From IMG/VR virus record IMGVR_UViG_3300044811_000010, positions 1 through 64,000 of that record: DNA of 64,000 nt; one strand, given 5' to 3'. Below are positions 1,328 to 11,099 of the stretch, piece after piece (within the stretch, counting starts at the first letter, position 1; every line of letters starts with the position of its first letter). The position numbers and the translations under genes are program-made. The stretch is from a virus. Below the pieces are notes generated by a model, which had not been told where the DNA came from, made no database searches, and saw nothing but the letters and a program-made list of their open reading frames with translations.

Positions 1328-1386
1328 GGGGATTACAGGCATCGACGCGCCTAGCGCGGACGTGGGTTCGACTCCCACAGTCTCCA
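1328..1386 (+). ncRNA. Minimal tmRNA-like tRNA domain without mRNA part
   Basis: 59 nt. The acceptor GGGGATT (1328-1334) pairs with AGTCTCC (1379-1385) including G3:U70, the alanine identity pair, followed by discriminator A1386. The T-arm is 1362-1378. Where a tRNA has its D-arm there is an unpaired stretch GGCATCGAC, close to the D-loop signature of tmRNA, and GGAC precedes the T-stem as in tmRNA. A four-pair stem CGCG/CGCG with loop CCTAG replaces the whole P2, tag and pseudoknot part. Could instead be an armless tRNA. Confidence 0.5.
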
Positions 1387-1388
1387 CT

Positions 1389-1681
1389 GCAAGGCAGTAC
1401 AGACGGCCGCGCGGTCCCCTGCTCAGGTAAGGCACCGTGAGGAAGGTCGAGGCATCGCGCCCCGCCACATTGGGGAGGACGAGGGGCAAGAGGGAGGGCT
1501 TAGGCCCGCTATGACCTCAACTGCGGTCAAGCGATGCGATCCCTGAAGCGCCGGCGAGTGGCAGCCGGACTGGTGGGAGCGGCGGTAGCGAGCAATCGCC
1601 CGCTAGAGCCTAGGCTCTAAGAAGGATGGTCGTCACCGGCACAGGCCGGCACAGAACCTCGCCTATCGGACTGACTTGCAT
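1389..1681 (+). ncRNA. rnpB: RNase P RNA (phage-encoded ribozyme)
   Basis: Catalytic RNA that trims tRNA 5' leaders. Both conserved ends are present: GAGGAAGGTCGAGGC (1439-1453, CR-I) and ACAGAACCTCGCCTATCGG (1651-1669, CR-V). Pairing supports the fold. P1: 1389-1398 with 1670-1679, ten pairs. P2: GACGGCC (1402-1408) with GGTCGTC (1628-1634). P4: CGAGG (1448-1452) with CCTCG (1657-1661), where E. coli has CCGGG/CCCGG, a compensated change. At about 293 nt it is shorter than the ~377-nt E. coli RNA, so the specificity domain is probably reduced. It begins two bases after the preceding tRNA-like element. The protein subunit is not seen here, so host RnpA may be used. Confidence 0.85.
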
Positions 1682-1704
1682 CTGTCAACGAAGTATGCTA
1701 GAGT
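1676..1704 (+). promoter_or_regulatory. tRNA-array promoter 1
   Basis: -35 TTGCAT (1676-1681), 17-bp spacer, -10 TAGAGT (1699-1704). The same layout and similar spacer recur at 9604-9632 before the third tRNA array. The -35 overlaps the 3' end of the RNase P RNA. Confidence 0.7.
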
Positions 1705-1713
1705 TCTTCGAAC

Positions 1714-1762
1714 GCCGCAGAGGTTGGCTCTGTAGGAGGTTTGAATCCTCCGTGCGGCTCCA
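1714..1762 (+). ncRNA. 49-nt mini tRNA-like element with encoded CCA
   Basis: Begins about ten bases after the -10 of promoter 1, close to the predicted transcript start. Stem GCCGCA (1714-1719) pairs with TGCGGC (1753-1758), then T1759 and an encoded CCA. A perfect T-arm (GGAGG, loop TTTGAAT, CCTCC) is present. Only one other hairpin (AGAG/CTCT) replaces both D-arm and anticodon arm. It may be a tRNA relic or a processed mimic. Confidence 0.4.
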
Positions 1763-1835
1763 GGGGGTGTAGCTCTAACGGTAGAGCGCCTGCCTTGCAA
1801 GCAGAGGGTTGTGGGTTCGAATCCCATCTCCTCCA
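1763..1835 (+). tRNA. tRNA-Ala(TGC)
   Basis: 73 nt; loop CTTGCAA reads TGC. The G3:U70 pair agrees with alanine identity. No encoded CCA. Confidence 0.93.
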
Positions 1836-1863
1836 CTTGGGGAGTCTTCGGGCTCCCCGCCAA

Positions 1864-1935
1864 GCGCCGCTAACTCAGCGGGAGAGTGCCACGGTGACAA
1901 CGTGGAAGTCGCAAGTTCGATTCTTGCGCGGCGCA
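1864..1935 (+). tRNA. tRNA-Val(GAC)
   Basis: 72 nt; perfect acceptor GCGCCGC/GCGGCGC; stem CCACG/CGTGG with loop GTGACAA. No CCA. The spacer before it (1840-1858) holds a small hairpin GGGAG/CTCCC. Confidence 0.93.
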
Positions 1936-1941
1936 CTTCAT

Positions 1942-2014
1942 GGCCCTGTAGCTCAGCGTGTAGAGCGTCCGGTTTACACCCGGCAGGTCGTAGGTTCGAA
2001 TCCTACCAGGGCCA
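1942..2014 (+). tRNA. tRNA-Val(TAC)
   Basis: 73 nt; acceptor GGCCCTG/CAGGGCC; loop TTTACAC reads TAC; no CCA. Confidence 0.92.
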
Positions 2015-2019
2015 CTCAT

Positions 2020-2096
2020 GGGACAGTATCCCCTCCGTCTGATAAGCGGTAGAAAGGGTAGCTGGTAACACGAGGGTTCAACTCCTTCCTGTCCCA
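2020..2096 (+). tRNA. Irregular tRNA-Ile(GAT)-like element with displaced D-arm motif
   Basis: Acceptor GGGACAG/CTGTCCC, T-arm (2072-2088) and discriminator A2096 are normal. An anticodon-like hairpin TCCGT-CTGATAA-GCGGT (loop reads GAT, isoleucine) follows the acceptor after only seven bases, so no D-arm lies before it. A D-arm-like sequence (GTAGCTGGTAACAC) occurs after it, inside a 21-nt variable region. If functional it would supply the only Ile(GAU) isoacceptor of the set. Confidence 0.45.
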
Positions 2097-2100
2097 CTCC

Positions 2101-2173
2101 GCAGCGGTAGCTCAATTGGTAGAGCACCACCTTGCCATGGTGGATGTCGCGAGTTCGAATCTCGTCCGCTGCT
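2101..2173 (+). tRNA. tRNA-Gly(GCC)
   Basis: 73 nt; acceptor GCAGCGG/CCGCTGC, stem CCACC/GGTGG, loop TTGCCAT; no CCA. Confidence 0.93.
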
Positions 2174-2176
2174 TAC

Positions 2177-2249
2177 GCCTCCGTAACTCAAATGGCTAGA
2201 GGCCCGGCTCTTACCCGGTGCGATGCGGGTTCGATTCCTGCCGGGGGTA
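2177..2249 (+). tRNA. tRNA-Lys(CTT)
   Basis: 73 nt; acceptor GCCTCCG/CGGGGGT with G:U pairs; loop CTCTTAC reads CTT; no CCA. Confidence 0.9.
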
Positions 2250-2253
2250 CTTC

Positions 2254-2326
2254 GCTCGCATGGCGCAAATGGCAGCGCACTCCCTTGGTATGGGAGAGGT
2301 TCTGAGTTCGAGTCTCAGTGTGAGCT
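2254..2326 (+). tRNA. tRNA-Thr(GGT)
   Basis: 73 nt; acceptor GCTCGCA/TGTGAGC; stem CTCCC/GGGAG, loop TTGGTAT; no CCA. Confidence 0.92.
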
Positions 2327-2327
2327 T

Positions 2328-2365
2328 CGGTGGGAAATGTCGGCCGTAAGGCTGGGCGCCCATCG
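2328..2365 (+). other. Structured spacer, tRNA-like double stem without T-arm
   Basis: CGGTGGG pairs with CCCATCG (one G:U), enclosing a second hairpin CGGCC-GTAA-GGCTG. It fills the gap between two Thr tRNAs. No T-loop, so not a tRNA; possibly a relic or processing element. Confidence 0.35.
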
Positions 2366-2369
2366 GTAC

Positions 2370-2437
2370 GCCTCGCCATCAGGAGATGGCCTGTCCCTTG
2401 TAAGGACGGAGGCTGGGTTCGAGTCCCAGGCGAGGCT
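2370..2437 (+). tRNA. tRNA-Thr(TGT), short D-arm
   Basis: 68 nt; acceptor GCCTCGC/GCGAGGC, loop CTTGTAA. The D-arm is only CATC-AGGA-GATG, with no GG loop. No CCA. Confidence 0.85.
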
Positions 2438-2441
2438 CTTC

Positions 2442-2508
2442 GCCGGACGATCAGGGATCAGCCGTCTTTCGTAAGGACGGCAGACGAGTTCGATTCTCGT
2501 GTTCGGCT
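2442..2508 (+). tRNA. tRNA-Thr(CGT), short D-arm
   Basis: 67 nt; acceptor GCCGGAC/GTTCGGC, stem CGTCT/GGACG, loop TTCGTAA. Minimal D-arm GATC-AGG-GATC. No CCA. Confidence 0.83.
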
Positions 2509-2511
2509 TAC

Positions 2512-2584
2512 GCAGGTGTGTTCACAACGGCATGATGCTGGCCTTCCAAGCCATGCGATGAGGGTTCGACTCCCTTCACCTGTT
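2512..2584 (+). tRNA. tRNA-Gly(TCC)
   Basis: 73 nt; acceptor GCAGGTG/CACCTGT, stem TGGC/GCCA, loop CTTCCAA. Followed by an encoded CCA at 2585-2587, which almost all the others lack. Confidence 0.88.
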
Positions 2585-2596
2585 CCAAGGTTGTAG

Positions 2597-2658
2597 GTCA
2601 CCACGACCGCTGACTCCCGCGCGCATAAAGACGTAAGGCGCGGGGCGAGGACGGTGAC
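2597..2658 (+). other. Structured spacer RNA between tRNA-Gly and tRNA-Phe
   Basis: The 82-base spacer forms an outer stem GTCACC/GGTGAC around a strong inner stem CCCGCGC/GCGCGGG with a ~16-nt loop. It lacks tRNA features and hammerhead core bases. Function unknown. Confidence 0.4.
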
Positions 2659-2669
2659 TGCGTCTATGC

Positions 2670-2742
2670 GGCTTCGTAGCTCAGTCGGTAGAGCAGGCCC
2701 CTGAAAAGGGTCGTGTCGCAGGTTCGAATCCTGCCGAAGCCA
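2670..2742 (+). tRNA. tRNA-Phe(GAA)
   Basis: 73 nt; acceptor GGCTTCG/CGAAGCC; loop CTGAAAA; no CCA. Last gene of the first array. Confidence 0.94.
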
Positions 2743-2746
2743 CTTC

Positions 2747-4067: not shown

Positions 4068-4409
4068 TCAGAACCCGAGTTCGTCAAGGCTGGCGCGTGG
4101 GTCGGAATCTAGGACCACTTCTTCGCCGCTGCAGCCCCAAGGCTCGGCGCAGGGGACGTGATGTGGGCACGGACGGGCAACGCGCTTGTAGCCCTTCGGA
4201 ATGCTGCGCGCCCTAGGAGGCGTCGGCTTGTCGATGAACACGCCGAACTCCTTGAAGCAGTCGGCGCAGAGGTCGTACTTGCGATCCGGGTACAGCCCAG
4301 GGTCCTGCTGACGGCCGTTTGCCTTCAGGCCGGGCACGTCGATGGTGCGGCGACCGCTGCGGATTTCCCTACCGCAGCGGTCGCACTCGATGATGTTCCT
4401 GACGCCCAT
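4068..4409 (-). CDS. Zinc-ribbon protein of the NAD salvage operon
   Basis: 113 residues. ECDRCG (8-13) and LCADC (47-51) form a CxxC...CxxC zinc ribbon. A second cysteine/histidine cluster (CPHHVPCAEPWGC) follows around residues 80-92. The gene overlaps the NAMPT stop by one base and is the last of the operon, so it is made together with the two NAD enzymes. No function is known to me; metal binding is inferred. Confidence 0.65.
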   Translation of the reverse strand: MGVRNIIECDRCGREIRSGRRTIDVPGLKANGRQQDPGLYPDRKYDLCADCFKEFGVFIDKPTPPRARSIPKGYKRVARPCPHHVPCAEPWGCSGEEVVLDSDPRASLDELGF

Positions 4410-5812
4410 CAGAGCGCCGCCCTCTCACGGATCTGGTCGAACGTCTGCTCGTTGACGAGCTGGCCGTCCTTGAACACCGTCTGCAGCGCGTCGCACTCGT
4501 CGTTGTCGAGCCACACGCCTTCCCTGTCCGTGTGGAAGGTGTTGTGCTGCAGGTTCTGGATCAGTGTCAAGCGGCCCTTCTTCGACGCCTTGGTGGAGTC
4601 CAAGGGCTTCTTGTACACGTCGTGCCACTCGCCGTCGCGTTGCTGAGCGCTGCTCTTGAACGCGAAGCGGCAGGTGTCGCGGTTGAGGCGCTGCAGGAGG
4701 CCTCCGCCCATCCCGAACACGAGGTTCTCGGGGCTGAACCCCTGCAACATAGCGCGGTTGACGATCTTCTCGATGCCATGCTCGTCAATCCCGTCGCCCC
4801 ACAGCAGCCGGACGTGCGGGTCGAGGACCCTGAATCCCTTAGGCGTCTGGGTTCCGCCGTAGTAGCTCCACAGCCGCTCCAAGAGCGCCGAGGTCAGGAG
4901 CTGCGGAGTCGGATGGTCGCGCGTGACCGAGTCCGGCCGCACGACGAACACGCCGTCGCGCGAGAGGATGCGGTCCTTGAACGTCGTCCCGACCCGATCC
5001 ACGAACTCGTAGATGTCGTAGGAGTCCGCGACGACGCTGAGGATGCCGCCGGGGTGGTTGTCGAGAAGCCGCGACGTGATCGCGGCCTCTCCATCACGGC
5101 CGAGCGAGGTCATGACCGAGTGCTCGGTCGCCGGAACGCTGAACGCCAGCGTGTTGGGGTCAGCGCCATAGTCACGGATTGCCAGAAGCAGCGCCGGCAG
5201 CGTGTCAGCGCCAACGAAGCTCGTCAAATGGCCCGCCACGGCAATCGCGGCGGCCTCATGGCCCGCTGCACCCCGGTATCCGAAGTCGTGGAGCATGAAT
5301 TGAAGCCCATCGAGGCCCGATCCGGCCGCAGTGAGGCGTTCGGCGAGCATTCGCTTGACCGAGCGGCTCCTAGTGGCAACCGTCGTCGGGTACCAGACGT
5401 GCATGAGCAGCGATTCGAGCGCGTTGGTGAGCCAGAACGCATCGGGGTCGGTGTTCTCGACCGCCATCAGCACGTTCCCGACCGGGACAACGGACCCCTC
5501 GGGCACGGCCTTGATGTGCAGCGGCAGACGCCCTCCATGCCGGTCGATGATCGTCTCCCAGCCCTTGTAGTTGAAGACCGAAGCGTCCCCGAAGTGGACC
5601 CGAGCCAGCTCGAAGGCTTCACTGAGGTTCTCGTAGGTCACGCGAGGGATGGTCTTCAGGATGGACTGCAGGCCGAAGAACACCGTCTCGTCGTACTCCG
5701 AACCCTGACGGGCTTCGAGGTAGCTGTAGACGCCGGTCGTGTTGGCCGGGTACTGATTCCAGTGGCCCAGCTTGTAACTGTCGGTTGCGAGGATCGGATT
5801 GTCGAGCATCAT
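4409..5812 (-). CDS. nadV: Nicotinamide phosphoribosyltransferase (NAMPT)
   Basis: 467 residues, normal length for the family. It joins nicotinamide and PRPP to give nicotinamide mononucleotide. The N-terminus DSYKLGHWNQYP and the later blocks HDFGYRGAAGHEAA, RPDSVTRDHPTPQ and FGMGGGLLQRLNRDT match NAMPT active-site regions. AAAGGAG eight bases before ATG 5812 sets the start. It lies three bases after the NMN adenylyltransferase gene in the same operon, so together they rebuild NAD+ from nicotinamide in two steps. Confidence 0.95.
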   Translation of the reverse strand: MMLDNPILATDSYKLGHWNQYPANTTGVYSYLEARQGSEYDETVFFGLQSILKTIPRVTYENLSEAFELARVHFGDASVFNYKGWETIIDRHGGRLPLHIKAVPEGSVVPVGNVLMAVENTDPDAFWLTNALESLLMHVWYPTTVATRSRSVKRMLAERLTAAGSGLDGLQFMLHDFGYRGAAGHEAAAIAVAGHLTSFVGADTLPALLLAIRDYGADPNTLAFSVPATEHSVMTSLGRDGEAAITSRLLDNHPGGILSVVADSYDIYEFVDRVGTTFKDRILSRDGVFVVRPDSVTRDHPTPQLLTSALLERLWSYYGGTQTPKGFRVLDPHVRLLWGDGIDEHGIEKIVNRAMLQGFSPENLVFGMGGGLLQRLNRDTCRFAFKSSAQQRDGEWHDVYKKPLDSTKASKKGRLTLIQNLQHNTFHTDREGVWLDNDECDALQTVFKDGQLVNEQTFDQIRERAAL

Positions 5813-5814
5813 GG

Positions 5815-6885
5815 CTACGACTCCTTTCGATTGAGGTAGTCCACCAGCATCCCCATCAGCGGACGGTGCTCGGGGACAAGGTTGTTGTAGAACTGCTCTC
5901 GGGAGACTGGGTTGCCGAGTTCCTTCCCGTACTTCACGTCAGGCAGGTCAATCCACTTGACCTCTTCGATGTCGTCGCCCGGCGTGGGGCGGCCGTGGGT
6001 GTACTGCGCCGTGAACAGCATCGTCTTGATGCAGTCCGGCTCGTTGCGGTAGCGCCAGTCATCGACTCGAAGCGACCCGACGTAGCGCACATCCTCGACG
6101 TTCAGGCTCGTCTCTTCCTGAACCTCACGCTTGGCGTCGGCCTCGAAGCTGTCGGAGCGCGGGTCGGAGAAACCGCCAATGAAGCGATAGAGCGTCTCGT
6201 TTGGCTTGCGGCCGAGCAGAAGCTGCAAGGGCTTCTCCGTCGCATAGAAGGCTGCGGCCTCGTCTCGATGCACCGGACACGCAGTCCGTGGCTGGCAGCT
6301 TCGACAGTCGATCCACGACTGCGAAGCCTTGCGCTCGCGCGAGGGAACGTCCTTGAGAATCGCCACGTCTACCGTCGTGTAGGCGGTCGGGAAGCGGGCC
6401 TGCGACGCCCAGATGACGCCGGCACGGAACTCGGGGCTGGACTTAGCCCGGCTGCGGGCGATGTCCTTGCGCTGCGCGCGGCCGGAGTAGAACGTGGTCT
6501 GCGTCAGCTCCTGCGTCGGGTGGTTGCCCGTGTAGTGGCTGATGAAGGAGTCGCGGCCGCCGTAGAGGACGACGCTCTGGCCGGGAGCGACGAGGTTGGC
6601 GATGTTGTCGTCAAGAACGTGCGACCACGCGCGGTCGTTGTTCAAGTCCTTGACGTACAGGACGTTGGCCTCGGGGAACTCCGCGAGGATCATCTGCTTG
6701 CGCGCCTCGAAGTCGAGCGGATTGTTCGTGGAGACGGAAAGCGGCGAAAGGCCGAGGAAGATGATGACCTTGTCGTGCCGGTCGCAGACGTACTTGATCA
6801 GCTCCCTATGAGCGTTGTGCAGCTCATGGACCTGGAATCGCCCTACCAGTACCCCTACGTCGTACTGCTTCTCTGTTGGCTGCAT
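5815..6885 (-). CDS. nadM: Bifunctional NMN adenylyltransferase / Nudix hydrolase
   Basis: 356 residues. N-terminal nucleotidyltransferase: GRFQ (15-18) with HNAH (23-26), plus the block PLSVSTNNPLDFEARKQM. C-terminal Nudix domain: box starting GGFSDPRSDSFEADAKREV with QEET. The first domain makes NAD+ from NMN and ATP. The Nudix part in relatives cleaves ADP-ribose or similar, which could remove products of NADase defences. I chose ATG 6885 (GAAGGAGG upstream) over ATG 6921, which has no ribosome site. Confidence 0.9.
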   Translation of the reverse strand: MQPTEKQYDVGVLVGRFQVHELHNAHRELIKYVCDRHDKVIIFLGLSPLSVSTNNPLDFEARKQMILAEFPEANVLYVKDLNNDRAWSHVLDDNIANLVAPGQSVVLYGGRDSFISHYTGNHPTQELTQTTFYSGRAQRKDIARSRAKSSPEFRAGVIWASQARFPTAYTTVDVAILKDVPSRERKASQSWIDCRSCQPRTACPVHRDEAAAFYATEKPLQLLLGRKPNETLYRFIGGFSDPRSDSFEADAKREVQEETSLNVEDVRYVGSLRVDDWRYRNEPDCIKTMLFTAQYTHGRPTPGDDIEEVKWIDLPDVKYGKELGNPVSREQFYNNLVPEHRPLMGMLVDYLNRKES

Positions 6886-6942
6886 CAGGCGCAAACCTCC
6901 TTCTATGTCCGGGCCGCGCATCGGTGCGACGGCTCTACGAGA

Positions 6943-6986: not shown

Positions 6987-7391
6987 GTGGCTTTTCTCCG
7001 AGTAGTCAGAAAGAACTGGGTAGTGATTCTACTTCTGTTCGCCATCGTCTCGTCCTTCTTGGCGTCGATGCAGCAGACGCGCGCCGACACGGCTCAAGTT
7101 CGATCCAAGGCAATCGCCCTCTGCACCATCGACAACCAACGCGCCGTGCTGGTCATCACCTTCAAGTTCTCGGTGGCGAGGGCGGCGGACAAGCGCGGCG
7201 AGCACGCGGCGGCTGCTCACTTCCGGGCTCTTGGAGATAGTGGGCTGGCGTTGATCCCACTTGCCCCGGAAGATCAAGCCGAGCGAGCCCACCTAGCCGA
7301 TGTCATTCCGCAGGGAGGGCACTTCGTGCTGCCGCAGAAGGCGAAGGACGCGATCCGCGCGGGATGCGTGGATTCCTACCGCGCCAACTAG
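6987..7391 (+). CDS. Membrane-anchored small protein
   Basis: 134 residues, GTG start fixed by the -10 box six bases upstream. Residues 10-27 (NWVVILLLFAIVSSFLAS) form one transmembrane segment after a basic N-terminus, so the rest is probably outside the membrane. Two cysteines (CTIDN and AGCVDSYRAN) may pair. A similar plan (anchor, C..N, distal AxC) occurs in the protein at 60944. Function unknown. Confidence 0.6.
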   Translation: MAFLRVVRKNWVVILLLFAIVSSFLASMQQTRADTAQVRSKAIALCTIDNQRAVLVITFKFSVARAADKRGEHAAAAHFRALGDSGLALIPLAPEDQAERAHLADVIPQGGHFVLPQKAKDAIRAGCVDSYRAN

Positions 7392-7406
7392 GTCAGAGAA
7401 GCGTGC

Positions 7407-7412
7407 TATAGT
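7407..7412 (+). promoter_or_regulatory. -10 box of second tRNA array
   Basis: TATAGT, ten bases before tRNA-Tyr; the -35 region is weak. Confidence 0.5.
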
Positions 7413-7421
7413 CCCTGACGC

Positions 7422-7499
7422 GCTGCCGCGCATAGGCGAGCAAGGCCGGCTGTAACCCGGCGTCCTCTGGACTTGCAGGTTCGACTCCTGACGGCAGCA
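7422..7499 (+). tRNA. tRNA-Tyr(GTA)
   Basis: 78 nt, class II with variable arm GTCC-TCT-GGAC; stem GCCGG/CCGGC, loop CTGTAAC. No CCA. One mismatch at the base of the T-stem. Confidence 0.9.
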
Positions 7500-7503
7500 C
7501 TTC

Positions 7504-7587
7504 GGAAGGCTCCGCTTGGTGGCAGGCAACTCGGTTCGAACCCGAGGGCGGCGTTTCTCGTTGGGGGTTCGACTCCTCAGCCTTCCG
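7504..7587 (+). tRNA. tRNA-Ser(CGA)
   Basis: 84 nt, class II; acceptor GGAAGGC/GCCTTCC, stem CTCGG/CCGAG, loop TTCGAAC. Same T-stem mismatch as the Tyr tRNA. No CCA. Confidence 0.87.
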
Positions 7588-7591
7588 CTTC

Positions 7592-7663
7592 GTCGTAGTG
7601 CTGGGAGTGGCGACCAGCCGGGCTGCAACCCCGAGAACGTCGGTTCGAATCCGACCTACGACT
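7592..7663 (+). tRNA. tRNA-Cys(GCA)
   Basis: 72 nt; acceptor GTCGTAG/CTACGAC, loop CTGCAAC, no CCA. Confidence 0.92.
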
Positions 7664-7666
7664 TAC

Positions 7667-7753
7667 GGAGAGGACCCGGCTGGATCAGGAGCTTGCCCGC
7701 TAAGCAAGTAGCGCGTCCTAGATGTGTTCGGGGTTCGAGTCCCCGTCTCTCCG
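7667..7753 (+). tRNA. tRNA-Ser(GCT)
   Basis: 87 nt, class II; stem CTTGC/GCAAG, loop CCGCTAA. Position 33 is C instead of the near-universal U. The 5' half is nearly identical to the next Ser tRNA. No CCA. Confidence 0.88.
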
Positions 7754-7758
7754 CTCAC

Positions 7759-7844
7759 GGAGAGGACCCGGCTGGATCAGGAGCATCCCTGGAAAGGATG
7801 TGCGGCGGTCACGCGTCTTCAGGGTTCGAGTCCCTGTCTCTCCG
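7759..7844 (+). tRNA. tRNA-Ser(GGA)
   Basis: 86 nt, class II; stem CATCC/GGATG, loop CTGGAAA; no CCA. Recent duplicate of the Ser(GCT) gene, judging by the shared acceptor and D-arm. Confidence 0.92.
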
Positions 7845-7997
7845 CTTGATCGCTCCAACGGCTGCCCCGAGTAGCGCGACGATCATCACCAGTGCCGCAA
7901 GTGCCGCCACTACGACAGCCGCGTAGATGACGATGAAGGGCAGCAGGATCCCCGCGACGAGCGCGATTCCGGTGCCCAAGCAGCCTCCGTCAGACAT
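7809..7997 (-). CDS. Small two-helix membrane protein overlapping tRNA-Ser
   Basis: 62 residues. Residues 9-50 are almost wholly hydrophobic (ALVAGILLPFIVIYAAVVV, then AALVMIVALLGAAVGAI), giving one long or two short transmembrane helices before a charged tail. The last 36 bases run antisense through tRNA-Ser(GGA). It follows the CCA-adding enzyme by 34 bases. The overlap lowers confidence. Confidence 0.5.
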   Translation of the reverse strand: MSDGGCLGTGIALVAGILLPFIVIYAAVVVAALAALVMIVALLGAAVGAIKRRDRDSNPEDA

Positions 7998-8031
7998 CAG
8001 CCGCAGCAGACTCCACTGCAGGCGCCGCAGC

Positions 8032-9564
8032 TCACGCGAGCGCCTCGGCCCGCGTGAGCTGCCACTCCCGCGACATCGTCTGCTCGGTGGGCTGGCAGAC
8101 GACATCGTCCAGCACGGCGTTGAGGATCTCGCCGATCTTGCGGCCGTCCGCGCCGATGGCGCGCACGTCATGGCCGTTGATCTTCAGGTCCCTCGGAGAC
8201 GTGGGGACGTTGTCCTTCTCCGCCTCACGGCGCAGCAGTTCCATCCGGCTGATCTGCTCGATGTGACCCTTGTTGGGCTTGCCCTTGCCAGTCAGGTCGC
8301 ACATGCGGTGCAGGAACAGGTCGGCCAGCAGCTCGTCCCCGAACTGCACACGCATCCGGCGGACCTTCGAGCCCTTGAGCTTGCCGTCGACGGTGACCAT
8401 GTGATTGCGAATGAGCAGGCGCACGTCCTCGCGCAGACCGTTGCCTGCGTTCAGGCGCCGAGCGGTCTTGTTCCAGATGCGGGCGCCCGCAACCTCGTGG
8501 TCCTCCGTGGCGACCATCATCGGCGCGCCGCTAGCGACAGAGCGGGACGCGGTCCCGTCCTGAGCGTAGTAGTGCTTGCGTCCGTCCTTCCCAATCCACG
8601 CCGTCTCAGGCTTGCCCGCGTCGTGGAACAGCAGGGCCATGCGGACGCGCAGCGGCGCGTCGACGTGCGTAGCCGTCGTCAGAGCAGCGAACGTGTGCTC
8701 GTCGGTGGTCAGGTCGTGGTAGCGCGAGCCCTGATCGAAGCCGATCATCGGAGCCAGCTCAGGCAGCAGTGTGGCGAGAACGCCAGTGTCGAGCGCCAGC
8801 CTCAGCGCCTTGACCGGCTCGTCGCCCATCAGCAGCTTGCACAGCTCTTCCAGCACGGTTCCGGACGCGTAGCCATTGGCGCTCAGGCCGTTTACAGCGT
8901 CAGCGTGCTCACGCATCTGGTCGAGCGTGTTGCTCGACAGGTCGTAGCCAAGCGTCGAAACGAAGCGCAGAGCACGCAGCGTGCGCAGCGGGTCGTCGCG
9001 GAACGAATCCGGGTGAGTGGTGCGGATGATCTTATGGCTCAGGTCGTACAGGCCGCAGTTCGTCGGGTCCACGACGTTCTCGACCAGTGCCCCGCCCGAC
9101 ATGGTGGTCAACGAAGACATGCCGGCAGTCGGATCCACGATCTTGTAGAGAGCGTTGAACGTGAAGTCACGGCGCACGGCGTCTTCGTCCAGCCGCAGGT
9201 TCGGGTCAACCACGATGTCAAACGCGCGATGCACGTTCTCGCCGGGGGCGGGCGCGCGAGGGCGCTCCGTGCGCGGCAGGACGACTTCGATCAGACCCAT
9301 GCCGCGCGCGGCGACCCGCCATCCGGCCTGCCGACCATCGCGCAGCACCAGCGGGGAAACGACGTTGGACTTGTTCGCGGGGTCGTACCGAATCGCGGCG
9401 TCCTTGAGCGCAATGCCCAGCTTCGCCAGTCCGACGCCTCGGATCATGTAGTCAGCGTCCTTGACCTTGCGGCCGATCAGTTCGTCTCGAACGGAGCCGC
9501 CGACGCGGTAGGCTTCGAAGCCCAGGCCGGCGATGAAAGTGTCTGTCCGCTCGATGTACGCCAT
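8032..9564 (-). CDS. cca: CCA-adding tRNA nucleotidyltransferase
   Basis: 510 residues. Adds or repairs the 3' CCA end of tRNA. The nucleotidyltransferase head has GGSVRD (22-27) and the catalytic DAD (36-38). A central basic RNA-binding part follows, then an HD domain with LLFHDAGKPETA around residue 305. ATG 9564 is chosen because a -10 box (TACGTT) ends six bases before it; the longer frame to 9609 crosses that promoter. It lies between two tRNA arrays whose genes almost all lack CCA, so these tRNAs depend on such an enzyme. Confidence 0.93.
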   Translation of the reverse strand: MAYIERTDTFIAGLGFEAYRVGGSVRDELIGRKVKDADYMIRGVGLAKLGIALKDAAIRYDPANKSNVVSPLVLRDGRQAGWRVAARGMGLIEVVLPRTERPRAPAPGENVHRAFDIVVDPNLRLDEDAVRRDFTFNALYKIVDPTAGMSSLTTMSGGALVENVVDPTNCGLYDLSHKIIRTTHPDSFRDDPLRTLRALRFVSTLGYDLSSNTLDQMREHADAVNGLSANGYASGTVLEELCKLLMGDEPVKALRLALDTGVLATLLPELAPMIGFDQGSRYHDLTTDEHTFAALTTATHVDAPLRVRMALLFHDAGKPETAWIGKDGRKHYYAQDGTASRSVASGAPMMVATEDHEVAGARIWNKTARRLNAGNGLREDVRLLIRNHMVTVDGKLKGSKVRRMRVQFGDELLADLFLHRMCDLTGKGKPNKGHIEQISRMELLRREAEKDNVPTSPRDLKINGHDVRAIGADGRKIGEILNAVLDDVVCQPTEQTMSREWQLTRAEALA

Positions 9565-9570
9565 GGGAGA

Positions 9571-9576
9571 AACGTA
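9571..9576 (-). promoter_or_regulatory. -10 box of leaderless cca promoter
   Basis: TGG-TACGTT, with TTGCGC 17 bases upstream as -35; six bases to ATG 9564. Confidence 0.6.
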
Positions 9577-9603
9577 CCACATTGGGCTTCCGGGCGCAAG
9601 TTC

Positions 9604-9632
9604 TTGCACATGTCACGAAGATGTGCTAGAGT
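9604..9632 (+). promoter_or_regulatory. tRNA-array promoter 3
   Basis: -35 TTGCAC (9604-9609), 17 bp, -10 TAGAGT (9627-9632). Near copy of promoter 1 at 1676. Confidence 0.7.
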
Positions 9633-9640
9633 CCCATCTC

Positions 9641-9680
9641 TGGTCAGCGCTCCGTCGGCGACGGCGGGTAGCGGGGCCAG
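9641..9680 (+). other. Structured leader of third tRNA array
   Basis: Between promoter and first tRNA: nested pairing CTGG/CCAG, CGCT/AGCG and a perfect CCGTC-GGC-GACGG hairpin. No T-loop. It occupies the place held by the mini tRNA-like element after promoter 1. Confidence 0.4.
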
Positions 9681-9685
9681 GACAC

Positions 9686-9757
9686 TGAGGAGTAGTGTAA
9701 TGGCAGCACCGGAGTCCTTGAAACTTCGTAGTGCGGGTTCGAGTCCCGCCTCCTCAT
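9686..9757 (+). tRNA. tRNA-Gln(TTG)
   Basis: 72 nt beginning with U1 as usual for Gln; loop CCTTGAA, so position 33 is C. No CCA. Confidence 0.86.
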
Positions 9758-9761
9758 TCAC

Positions 9762-9833
9762 TGCGGAATGGTGTAACGGCAGCATGGCGGGTTCTGAGCC
9801 CGTTCGATCTAGGTTCGAATCCTAGTTCCGCAG
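9762..9833 (+). tRNA. tRNA-Gln(CTG)
   Basis: 72 nt; acceptor TGCGGAA/TTCCGCA, loop TTCTGAG, no CCA. Confidence 0.92.
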
Positions 9834-9838
9834 CTCAC

Positions 9839-9909
9839 TGGCGTGTAGCTCAAGGGCAGAGCCTCCGGTTGTTACCCGGCGGATGAGGGTTCGAATCCTT
9901 CCATGCCAG
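9839..9909 (+). tRNA. tRNA-Asn(GTT)
   Basis: 71 nt; acceptor TGGCGTG/CATGCCA, loop TTGTTAC, no CCA. Confidence 0.91.
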
Positions 9910-9914
9910 CTCAT

Positions 9915-9988
9915 CAGCGTGTGGCGCAGTCTGGTAGCGCTCTTTTCTGGGGAAAATGAGGTCGCAGGTTCAAATCCTGCCACGCTGA
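9915..9988 (+). tRNA. tRNA-Pro(GGG)
   Basis: 74 nt starting C1 (Pro-like); loop CTGGGGA, no CCA. Confidence 0.9.
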
Positions 9989-9994
9989 CTTCTC

Positions 9995-10067
9995 GCAGCC
10001 ATGGTCTAGTGGTCATGATGCCGGCCTTTCAAGCCGGACGACGAGGGTTCGAATCCCTCTGGCTGTA
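9995..10067 (+). tRNA. tRNA-Glu(TTC)
   Basis: 73 nt; stem CCGGC/GCCGG, loop CTTTCAA, no CCA. Confidence 0.92.
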
Positions 10068-10071
10068 CTAC

Positions 10072-10144
10072 GGCGCGTTGGGGTAACGGTTAGCCTCTCA
10101 GCTTCTCAAGCTGCTGGATACGAGTTCGAATCTCGTACGCGCTA
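10072..10144 (+). tRNA. tRNA-Glu(CTC)
   Basis: 73 nt; acceptor GGCGCGT/ACGCGCT, loop TTCTCAA, no CCA. Confidence 0.9.
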
Positions 10145-10149
10145 CTCAT

Positions 10150-10221
10150 CGGGATCAAGTGTTTATGGCTGCACCGGCCCCTCGGACGGGTCAAGACGGA
10201 GTTCGAATCTCCGGTTCCCGA
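10150..10221 (+). tRNA. tRNA-Pro(CGG)
   Basis: 72 nt starting C1; stem GGCCC/GGGTC, loop CTCGGAC. One U:U mismatch in the acceptor. No CCA. Confidence 0.84.
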
Positions 10222-10225
10222 CTTC

Positions 10226-10308
10226 GCTCCCGTGGTGGAATGGTAGACGCGCTAGGTCGAGAGCCTAGTGCCCTAACGGGCGTGCAGGTTCAAGTCCTGC
10301 CGGGAGCA
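10226..10308 (+). tRNA. tRNA-Leu(GAG)
   Basis: 83 nt, class II with arm GCCC-TAAC-GGGC; stem CTAGG/CCTAG, loop TCGAGAG, so position 33 is C. No CCA. Confidence 0.88.
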
Positions 10309-10314
10309 CTGCAT

Positions 10315-10399
10315 ACCAGCGTGGTGAAATTTGGTAGACGCAGCAGGTTCAGAACCTGCCGGCCGCAAGGTCTTGAGGGTTCAAGTCCCTCCGCTGGTA
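10315..10399 (+). tRNA. tRNA-Leu(CAG)
   Basis: 85 nt, class II; stem GCAGG/CCTGC, loop TTCAGAA, no CCA. Confidence 0.9.
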
Positions 10400-10403
10400 C
10401 TAC

Positions 10404-10488
10404 GCAAGAGTGGCGAAATGGGTAAACGCTCCGGGCTCAAACCCCGGCGAGGTCATTCCTCTTGAGGGTTCGATTCCCTCCTCTTGTA
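10404..10488 (+). tRNA. tRNA-Leu(CAA)
   Basis: 85 nt, class II; stem CCGGG/CCCGG, loop CTCAAAC, no CCA. Confidence 0.92.
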
Positions 10489-10492
10489 CTAC

Positions 10493-10566
10493 GTCTCCTT
10501 AGCTCAGCAGGATAGAGCGCTGGTCCGCGAAGCCAGAGGCCGCAGGTTCGAATCCTGCAGGGGACG
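10493..10566 (+). tRNA. tRNA-Arg(GCG)
   Basis: 74 nt; acceptor GTCTCCT/AGGGGAC; stem CTGGT/GCCAG, loop CCGCGAA with C33. No CCA. Confidence 0.86.
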
Positions 10567-10570
10567 CTCC

Positions 10571-10644
10571 GGTGATGTAACTCAGTCGGATAGAGTGGCG
10601 GCTTGTCAAGCCGTTGGTCGCGGGTTCGAGTCCCGTCATCACCG
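10571..10644 (+). tRNA. tRNA-Asp(GTC)
   Basis: 74 nt; acceptor GGTGATG/CATCACC, loop TTGTCAA, G73 as expected for Asp. Confidence 0.93.
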
Positions 10645-10648
10645 CTTC

Positions 10649-10721
10649 GCCTCCGTAACTCAGCGGACAGAGTGCTTGGCCTCGAACCAAGTGGTCGCGG
10701 GTTCAAATCCTGCCGGGGGCG
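10649..10721 (+). tRNA. tRNA-Arg(TCG)
   Basis: 73 nt; stem CTTGG/CCAAG, loop CCTCGAA with C33. Similar body to tRNA-Lys at 2177. No CCA. Confidence 0.88.
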
Positions 10722-10727
10722 CTACAC

Positions 10728-10803
10728 GGTGAATGTAGACTAATCGGTCAAGTCCCTTGGTTGTGAACCAAGCCGATGCGGGTTCGAGTCCCGTCGTTCA
10801 CCC
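10728..10803 (+). tRNA. tRNA-His(GTG)
   Basis: 76 nt; stem CTTGG/CCAAG, loop TTGTGAA; discriminator C, typical of His. Confidence 0.9.
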
Positions 10804-10807
10804 TCTC

Positions 10808-10876
10808 GGGTCATAGGTCATGGCGACCAAGCAGGTTCCAACCCTGCAGGACAGCGTTCGATTCGTTGATGACCCG
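10808..10876 (+). tRNA. tRNA-Trp(CCA), short D-arm
   Basis: 69 nt; acceptor GGGTCAT/ATGACCC; D-arm GGTC-ATGGC-GACC; stem GCAGG/CCTGC, loop TTCCAAC. Confidence 0.87.
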
Positions 10877-10880
10877 CTTC

Positions 10881-10947
10881 GGCTCTCTGAAGGTACGACA
10901 CGGTCCCTCATAAGGACGGTGGACAGGTTCGAGTCCTGTGGGAGCTA
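10881..10947 (+). tRNA. tRNA with CAT anticodon, reduced D-arm
   Basis: 67 nt; acceptor GGCTCTC/GGGAGCT; stem GTCC/GGAC, loop CTCATAA. The D region has no convincing stem. Could be Met, or Ile(AUA) after lysidine modification. Confidence 0.75.
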
Positions 10948-10951
10948 CTTC

Positions 10952-11020
10952 GCCCTTGAAGTTGGATACGCGACGGCCCTCCTAAGGCTTGCGCAGCGAG
11001 TTCGATTCTCGCCGGGGGCT
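10952..11020 (+). tRNA. tRNA-Arg(CCT), reduced D-arm
   Basis: 69 nt; acceptor GCCCTTG/CGGGGGC; stem GGCC/GGCT, loop CTCCTAA; short D-arm; no CCA. Confidence 0.8.
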
Positions 11021-11021
11021 T

Positions 11022-11092
11022 CGCAGATAGGTGGTCTGGTGACCATTCGGGCCTCATAAGCCTGAGAGCAGGGTTCGACTCCCGGTCTGCTA
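11022..11092 (+). tRNA. tRNA with CAT anticodon
   Basis: 71 nt; loop CTCATAA. The acceptor CGCAGAT/GTCTGCT pairs except at C1:U72, a mismatch recalling initiator tRNA, but the anticodon stem lacks the three G:C pairs of initiators and the T-loop is then six bases. Met, initiator-like or Ile2 remain possible. Confidence 0.7.
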
Positions 11093-11099
11093 CTTGTGG

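Follow-up and report, generated by a model that had tools for sequence, protein, structure and literature searches.

RNase P RNA belongs to the small set of ribozymes that are nearly universal, and its gene is a standard marker of cellular genomes. Strongly reduced versions are known, and in the minimal (type T) RNase P RNA of Pyrobaculum the catalytic domain is kept while the specificity domain is cut back further than in the phage RNA described here; that RNA is archaeal and works with archaeal proteins. In candidate phyla bacteria, reduced RNase P RNAs score under model cut-offs and various members are without helices, among them P12-P14 and P16-P18 (PMC8172020). Huge phages encode tRNAs, tmRNA, SmpB and CCA-adding enzymes, and in the survey that reported this RNase P is absent from the main text, RNA genes having been sought with tRNAscan-SE and ARAGORN (PMC7162821). 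We did not find a phage-encoded RNase P RNA described in the full-text literature, with the reservation that coverage was incomplete and that earlier notice elsewhere is not excluded; P finder, Bcheck and a jumbo-phage review leave it unmentioned.

The window analysed here is a stretch of 64,000 nucleotides, bases 1-64000 of an 80,254-base IMG/VR virus record, with genes for a major head protein, a tape measure, a ribonucleotide reductase, a terminase, a DNA polymerase A, and NAMPT-like and NUDIX proteins. We found that its positions 1388-1681 are a divergent, class-A-like RNase P RNA, homologous to bacterial RNase P RNA. The Rfam model of the bacterial class A RNA (RF00010) matches positions 1391-1681 end to end with 32.4 bits, the E-value being 2.9e-8 in a 1-kb search with all families and 5.5e-10 when RF00010 alone was run over the 80,254-base record. 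The curated gathering cut-off of the model is 100 bits and is not reached, so that a default Rfam scan of the window lists only tRNAs, without the RNase P RNA, and the RNA is classed as a divergent homologue only and not as a member of RF00010. The first-pass annotation had proposed a phage-encoded RNase P RNA and had named the lack of an above-threshold model hit as grounds for refutation; the model does match, at the E-value of 2.9e-8, and the rule taken literally is failed by the score. We hold to the identification despite this score because the E-value together with the relatives decides the question, and the proposal is supported by the phage hallmark genes and by the same locus in three related contigs. 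Among other phage RNAs, L117 (56.9 bits, E-value 1.4e-16) and L036 (64.8 bits) also fall under the RF00010 cut-off, while 11 others exceed it. Furthermore, a core descriptor (GAGGAANNU...ACAGRA with an in-register P4 of seven pairs), searched on both strands of the window, found the RNase P locus as its single site and nothing in 150 dinucleotide shuffles. Energy folding of the locus alone was uninformative (z = -0.16, no better than shuffles). The parts of the RNA are as follows.

1388-1681, plus strand: RNase P RNA gene, divergent and class-A-like, with a trimmed specificity domain (RF00010; syntenic, covarying homologues L094, L095 and L117)
1388-1398/1670-1680, plus strand: P1, an inverted repeat of 10 pairs with one G.A mismatch, covarying in four relatives
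1402-1408 (GACGGCC)/1628-1634 (GGUCGUC), plus strand: P2, 7/7 pairs, its 5' strand followed by a conserved GC
1410-1439, plus strand: P3 hairpin, from the fold; also recovered by RNAalifold on three relatives
1439-1452, plus strand: CR-I, GAGGAAGGUCGAGG, including the P4 5' strand (1444-1452) with bulged U1447
1453-1536, plus strand: trimmed specificity domain, conserved and covarying in the window, L094, L095 and L117
1453-1458/1531-1536, plus strand: P5, specificity domain
1460-1463/1472-1475, plus strand: P8, specificity domain
1490-1493/1515-1518, plus strand: P11, enclosing P12
1496-1499/1504-1507, plus strand: P12, specificity domain, with J12/11 at 1508-1514
1540-1543/1575-1578, plus strand: P15, within 1540-1578
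1551-1555/1564-1568, plus strand: P16-like stem, within 1540-1578
1572-1574, plus strand: CCA-binding GGU in L15, adjoining P15 in all four relatives
1582-1603, plus strand: P18, with a UA bulge and a GCAA (GNRA) tetraloop at 1592-1595; GNRA-type loop in four relatives
1604-1610/1613-1619, plus strand: P19 hairpin, within 1604-1627
1620-1627, plus strand: J19/2, AGAAGGAU; AGAARGAU in all four relatives
1635-1650, plus strand: extra hairpin between P2 and CR-V, from the local fold
1651-1665, plus strand: CR-V, ACAGAACCUCGCCUA, including the P4 3' strand (1657-1664)

The closing helix P1, P2 pseudoknotted with P4, and the P3 hairpin are all present in the window RNA, and P4 pairs AGG[U]CGAGG (1444-1452) with CCUCGCCU (1657-1664), in register and with the conserved bulged U. 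The conserved ends with P1, P2 and P4 that had been read by eye in the first pass are real, and CR-I and CR-V are present; P4 with its bulged U is found in the fold, and it departs from the common form by compensatory pairs, as had been claimed, the same pairs covarying across phage RNAs. The proposed extent was 1389-1681; the P1 helix sets the ends at 1388 and 1680. The idea of a trimmed specificity domain likewise stands, yet P11, P12 and a conserved J12/11 are retained in it. A three-hairpin reading of this domain was replaced by P8 with P11/P12 after relatives were compared.

Upon comparison with bacterial class A RNA (RF00010, rnpB), we observe that the phage RNA shares P1, P2, P3, P4 with its bulged U, P5, P8, P11, P12, P15 with GGU, P18 with a GNRA loop, and the CR-I GAGGAA..UC and CR-V ACAGAAC motifs. 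It differs in lacking a detectable counterpart of P9 and P10 in the window RNA, and of P13, P14 and a clear P6/P17 pseudoknot, none of which turned up in manual inspection or in the covariation fold; in having AGAAGGAU as the strand before P2 and an extra P19; and in lying inside a phage tRNA array without RnpA. The RNAs of the candidate phyla resemble it in their sub-cut-off scores and their loss of helices, but they are chromosomal bacterial genes, whereas the phage RNA keeps P12, P18 and the GGU motif (PMC8172020).

Relatives L094 and L095 were fetched from viral contigs via the major head protein, and L117 was reached via the CCA-adding enzyme. An RF00010 search of the head-protein relatives, the records behind L094 and L095 included, gave no match, yet an RNase P RNA was found by inspection at the syntenic spot in both. 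The order of TLD-only tmRNA (tRNA-like domain only), RNase P RNA, phage promoter and tRNA-Ala is common to the window, L094, L095 and L117. The four RNAs differ greatly in sequence yet share a fold: the spacing from CR-I to CR-V is 212, 217, 215 and 205 nt, the 5' strand of P4 is AGG[U]CGAGG for the window RNA, AGU[U]CAGG for L094, ACU[U]CGGGG for L095 and AAG[U]CCGGG for L117, with a complementary 3' strand in every case, and the P18 loops are GCAA, GCAA, GCGA and GUAA. In a composite alignment of the four, 53 hand-chosen pairs are paired in 99.5% of cells and 35 of them carry double changes, with no measure reached by any of 500 shuffles. Since these helices were selected by hand for complementarity, and part of the structure is thus hand-picked, an unsupervised RNAalifold run on an ordinary alignment of three relatives is the fairer test; it gave 80 pairs, 34 with compensatory change, and recovered P1, P2, P3, P5, P11, P12, P15, P18 and P19. 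Across 18 phage RNAs, in which CR-I GAGGAA..UC is invariant and all seven P2 positions covary, P2 and P4 are 98.9% paired with double changes at 12 of 15 pairs, and their covariation score is 0.623 against 0.190 when shuffled (0/500 shuffles). Pairs are kept while sequences change, and judged from these alignments the window RNA is evolving under selection on its fold and not decaying. No Pfam match was obtained for a 149-aa protein at 432-881 of the window; L094 and L095 have it upstream of their RNase P locus as well, and it is present in other relatives.

Next, we examined the surroundings of the gene, which sits at the end of the first tRNA unit, together with the CCA-adding enzyme.

1328-1386, plus strand: tmRNA tRNA-like domain (TLD) only, 59 nt, mRNA-like domain absent (RF00023)
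1682-1704, plus strand: phage promoter-like motif GTCAaCGAAG..TGCTAGAGT, a repeated motif that opens the next tRNA unit
1714-1762, plus strand: tRNA-like element of 49 nt without an anticodon arm (T-arm scan, fold)
1763-2743, plus strand: tRNA array 2 (ARAGORN, Rfam; similar order in L094 and L095)
7422-7844, plus strand: tRNA array 3, Tyr-Ser-Cys and two more (ARAGORN, T-arm scan, fold)
8032-9609, minus strand: CCA-adding enzyme (tRNA nucleotidyltransferase), 525 aa (PF01743 3.6e-11, PF12627 8e-8)
9686-11093, plus strand: tRNA array 4, with D-armless tRNAs at 10881-10947 and 10952-11020 (ARAGORN, T-arm scan, fold)

As the first reading of the locus had it, a tRNA-like element lies just upstream, ending one base before the RNA, and a repeated phage promoter motif begins directly after it; no terminator was recognised at the RNA's 3' end, which abuts this promoter. 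The motif GTCA.CGAAG..TGCTAGAGT occurs at 1682-1704, 7390-7412 and 9610-9632, before three tRNA array segments, and also in L094. Its TGYTANAGT part has three sites in the 64 kb (1696, 7404 and 9624), each just before a tRNA array, against 0.83 expected by chance. ARAGORN annotates 29 tRNA genes in the window, and scanning for T arms gave 35 tRNA-type elements within the first 11.2 kb, several without annotation; array 2 runs Ala-Val-Val-Gly-Lys-Thr-Thr-Gly-Phe plus unannotated ones. The D arm is missing or reduced in the tRNAs at 2442-2508, 10881-10947 and 10952-11020, all three missed by ARAGORN and the first of them a tRNA-Thr whose D arm is reduced, and the element at 1714-1762, directly downstream of the promoter motif, consists of an acceptor, one short hairpin, a T arm and a UCCA end.

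The element at 1328-1386 scores 51.3 bits with RF00023 (cut-off 47), about 314 middle positions of the model being skipped; it has G3.U70 and A73 but no anticodon arm, and lies upstream of the RNase P RNA in the relatives too. Such TLD-only tmRNAs (59-80 nt, without the mRNA-like part, G3.U70 and A73 kept) occur in many viral contigs, namely L094 (4702-4781), L117, L095, L099, L101-L104, L106, L108, L110, L111 and L113. They are probably alanine-accepting mini-tmRNAs whose role is unknown. SmpB was not found in the window's own record.

In the protein encoded at 8032-9609, the poly A polymerase head and RNA-binding domains are over their cut-offs and an HD domain is under its cut-off; the best NCBIfam model is TIGR02692 (tRNA_CCA_actino, 5.8e-38, below its cut-off), and the enzyme is 57-61% identical in relatives. 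The ARAGORN tRNAs of the window have no encoded CCA. In 25 of the 35 T-arm elements the sequence continues N73-C-U, which, by inference, could pair with the GG of L15. Of 17 other RNase P records that had not been selected for the enzyme, 6 have a CCA-adding enzyme, as against 0 of 12 comparison records, an association that is suggestive only, the comparison being small and size-biased.

Upon extending the search to other viral contigs, a CR-V consensus search returned 42 loci, which then underwent a core check and a tRNA scan, and many of them are RNase P RNAs inside tRNA arrays. Of 15 scanned loci in tRNA arrays, 11 exceed the Rfam cut-off, with 118-280 bits, and a tRNA often lies only 0-7 nt from the RNase P RNA. 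A search with a gapped pattern contributed L073/L078, L075, L076 and L079. We thus count 24 distinct phage RNase P RNAs, that is, the window RNA, its three relatives and 20 others in or beside tRNA arrays of IMG/VR contigs, so the initial impression that very few phages carry this ribozyme does not hold. Terminase or gp23 genes are found on the contigs of L035, L056, L057, L069 and L078; several other RNase P contigs match no hallmark gene and may be fragments or carry a wrong label. The distance from CR-I to CR-V ranges from 137 to 354 nt across phage RNAs, from which we infer that the RNA appears to have been shortened on more than one occasion. In L076, a 163-kb viral contig, a full tmRNA (10752-11098) shares the array with the RNase P RNA.

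Other matches were set aside. The exact window CR-V gave 26 loci in viral contigs, all chance by the core check, and the gapped-pattern matches L072, L074, L077 and L080 were chance matches outside tRNA arrays. Searches of isolate phages with other phage RNase P RNAs matched bacterial or unannotated records, and the copy in Microcystis phage MaAM05 sits among fabI, engB and glyS and is therefore not counted as a phage case. A whole-region DNA search of isolate phages returned tRNA matches only, and no terminase-based relatives of the window phage were found.

RnpA (PF00825) is absent from the window's record and from 24 other viral RNase P records. A host search by head protein over about 85,000 genomes found none, and since the host is unidentified, the protein partner of the phage RNA is only inferred. 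The phage-form pattern had one match in about 85,000 genomes, on a Pacearchaeota contig, which looks like the archaeon's own RNase P RNA. In the window, a NAMPT-like phosphoribosyltransferase adjoins a NUDIX protein at 4409-6921 (minus strand), possibly an NAD-rebuilding pair, and the rest of the record (L002) encodes a DNA/RNA ligase-like protein and a macro-domain protein at 7436-8362 and 9353-10075.

What the comparisons demonstrate, within the reach of genomic data, is a core that is kept (P4 and the CCA-binding loop), encoded by a phage and located in the same place in related phages. Our main reading, to which we assign a probability of roughly 80%, is that this is the RNA subunit of a phage RNase P that uses the host's RnpA and matures the phage tRNAs, its activity, expression and RnpA binding being inferred. 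The RNA would be transcribed in the first tRNA unit (no transcript data), would pair with the host RnpA protein (no binding data), and with it would cut the 5' leaders of phage tRNAs and tRNA-like RNAs (no cleavage data), after which the phage CCA-adding enzyme would complete the tRNA 3' ends. Together, the RNA and the CCA enzyme would give the phage most of a tRNA maturation line of its own, which would help when the host enzyme runs short or is shut off.

An RNA that binds host RnpA through its core, withdraws it from the host RNase P and lowers the host tRNA supply without forming a useful enzyme would fit the trimmed specificity domain and the 25 records, all of which have the RNA but no RnpA. 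We consider such a decoy unlikely, because it requires neither the catalytic features that are retained (P4 with the bulged U, CR-V and the CCA-binding GGU) nor the company of a tRNA array and a co-occurring CCA-adding enzyme. It is quite unlikely, too, that the enzyme is active but directed mainly at the TLD-only tmRNA, at phage mRNAs or at the polycistronic transcript of which it is part, and not at tRNAs; all four relatives have the TLD-only element directly before the RNA, but many of the other phage RNase P RNAs are surrounded by ordinary tRNAs, with no TLD-only element noticed beside those. The low Rfam score and the short specificity domain would also be expected of a decaying relic of a host rnpB carried along with tRNAs, a possibility that covariation strongly disfavours and that we regard as very improbable: nearly every pair is kept in related phages while 35 of 53 changed on both sides, and the CR-I to CR-V spacing stays within 212/217/215/205 nt in four phages. 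The record is a metagenomic contig, which leaves room for an assembly chimera or bacterial contamination, but this is scarcely credible given that three independent contigs share the gene order, two of them also the major head protein family, and that the window's own contig carries genes for head, tail and terminase.

A subunit of a tRNA-maturing phage RNase P thus remains the preferred reading, and two further ideas build on it. The J11/12-J12/11 region of bacterial RNase P touches the substrate where its T and D loops stack. Across the phage group this region, though short, is conserved, as P11-GA-P12 followed by a 7-nt J12/11, and its equivalence to the bacterial T-loop recognition module is uncertain. 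The hypothesis that the specificity domain is tuned to the phage's D-armless or otherwise odd tRNAs is compatible with these observations and no more, there being no cleavage data. Broader still, and in our view possible but doubtful, is a phage-specific RNase P RNA lineage whose specificity domain was reshaped alongside D-armless and anticodon-less RNAs, and which with the CCA enzyme and the TLD-only tmRNA would form a conserved autonomous maturation module replacing the host enzyme in infection.

What appears to be new is the recurrence of RNase P RNA in phage tRNA arrays, its trimmed and fast-evolving phage form, and the company it keeps. Standard annotation misses such RNAs, the default Rfam cut-off yielding none for the window genome and RF00010 being silent on the L094 and L095 records. 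Its repeated occurrence in phage tRNA arrays, with CCA-adding enzymes, would mean that some phages carry tRNA maturation besides tRNAs, and would help explain how an infecting phage gets arrays with 30 or more tRNAs processed. Overall, the trimmed, fast-evolving phage versions offer a natural experiment on the parts that the ribozyme can do without.
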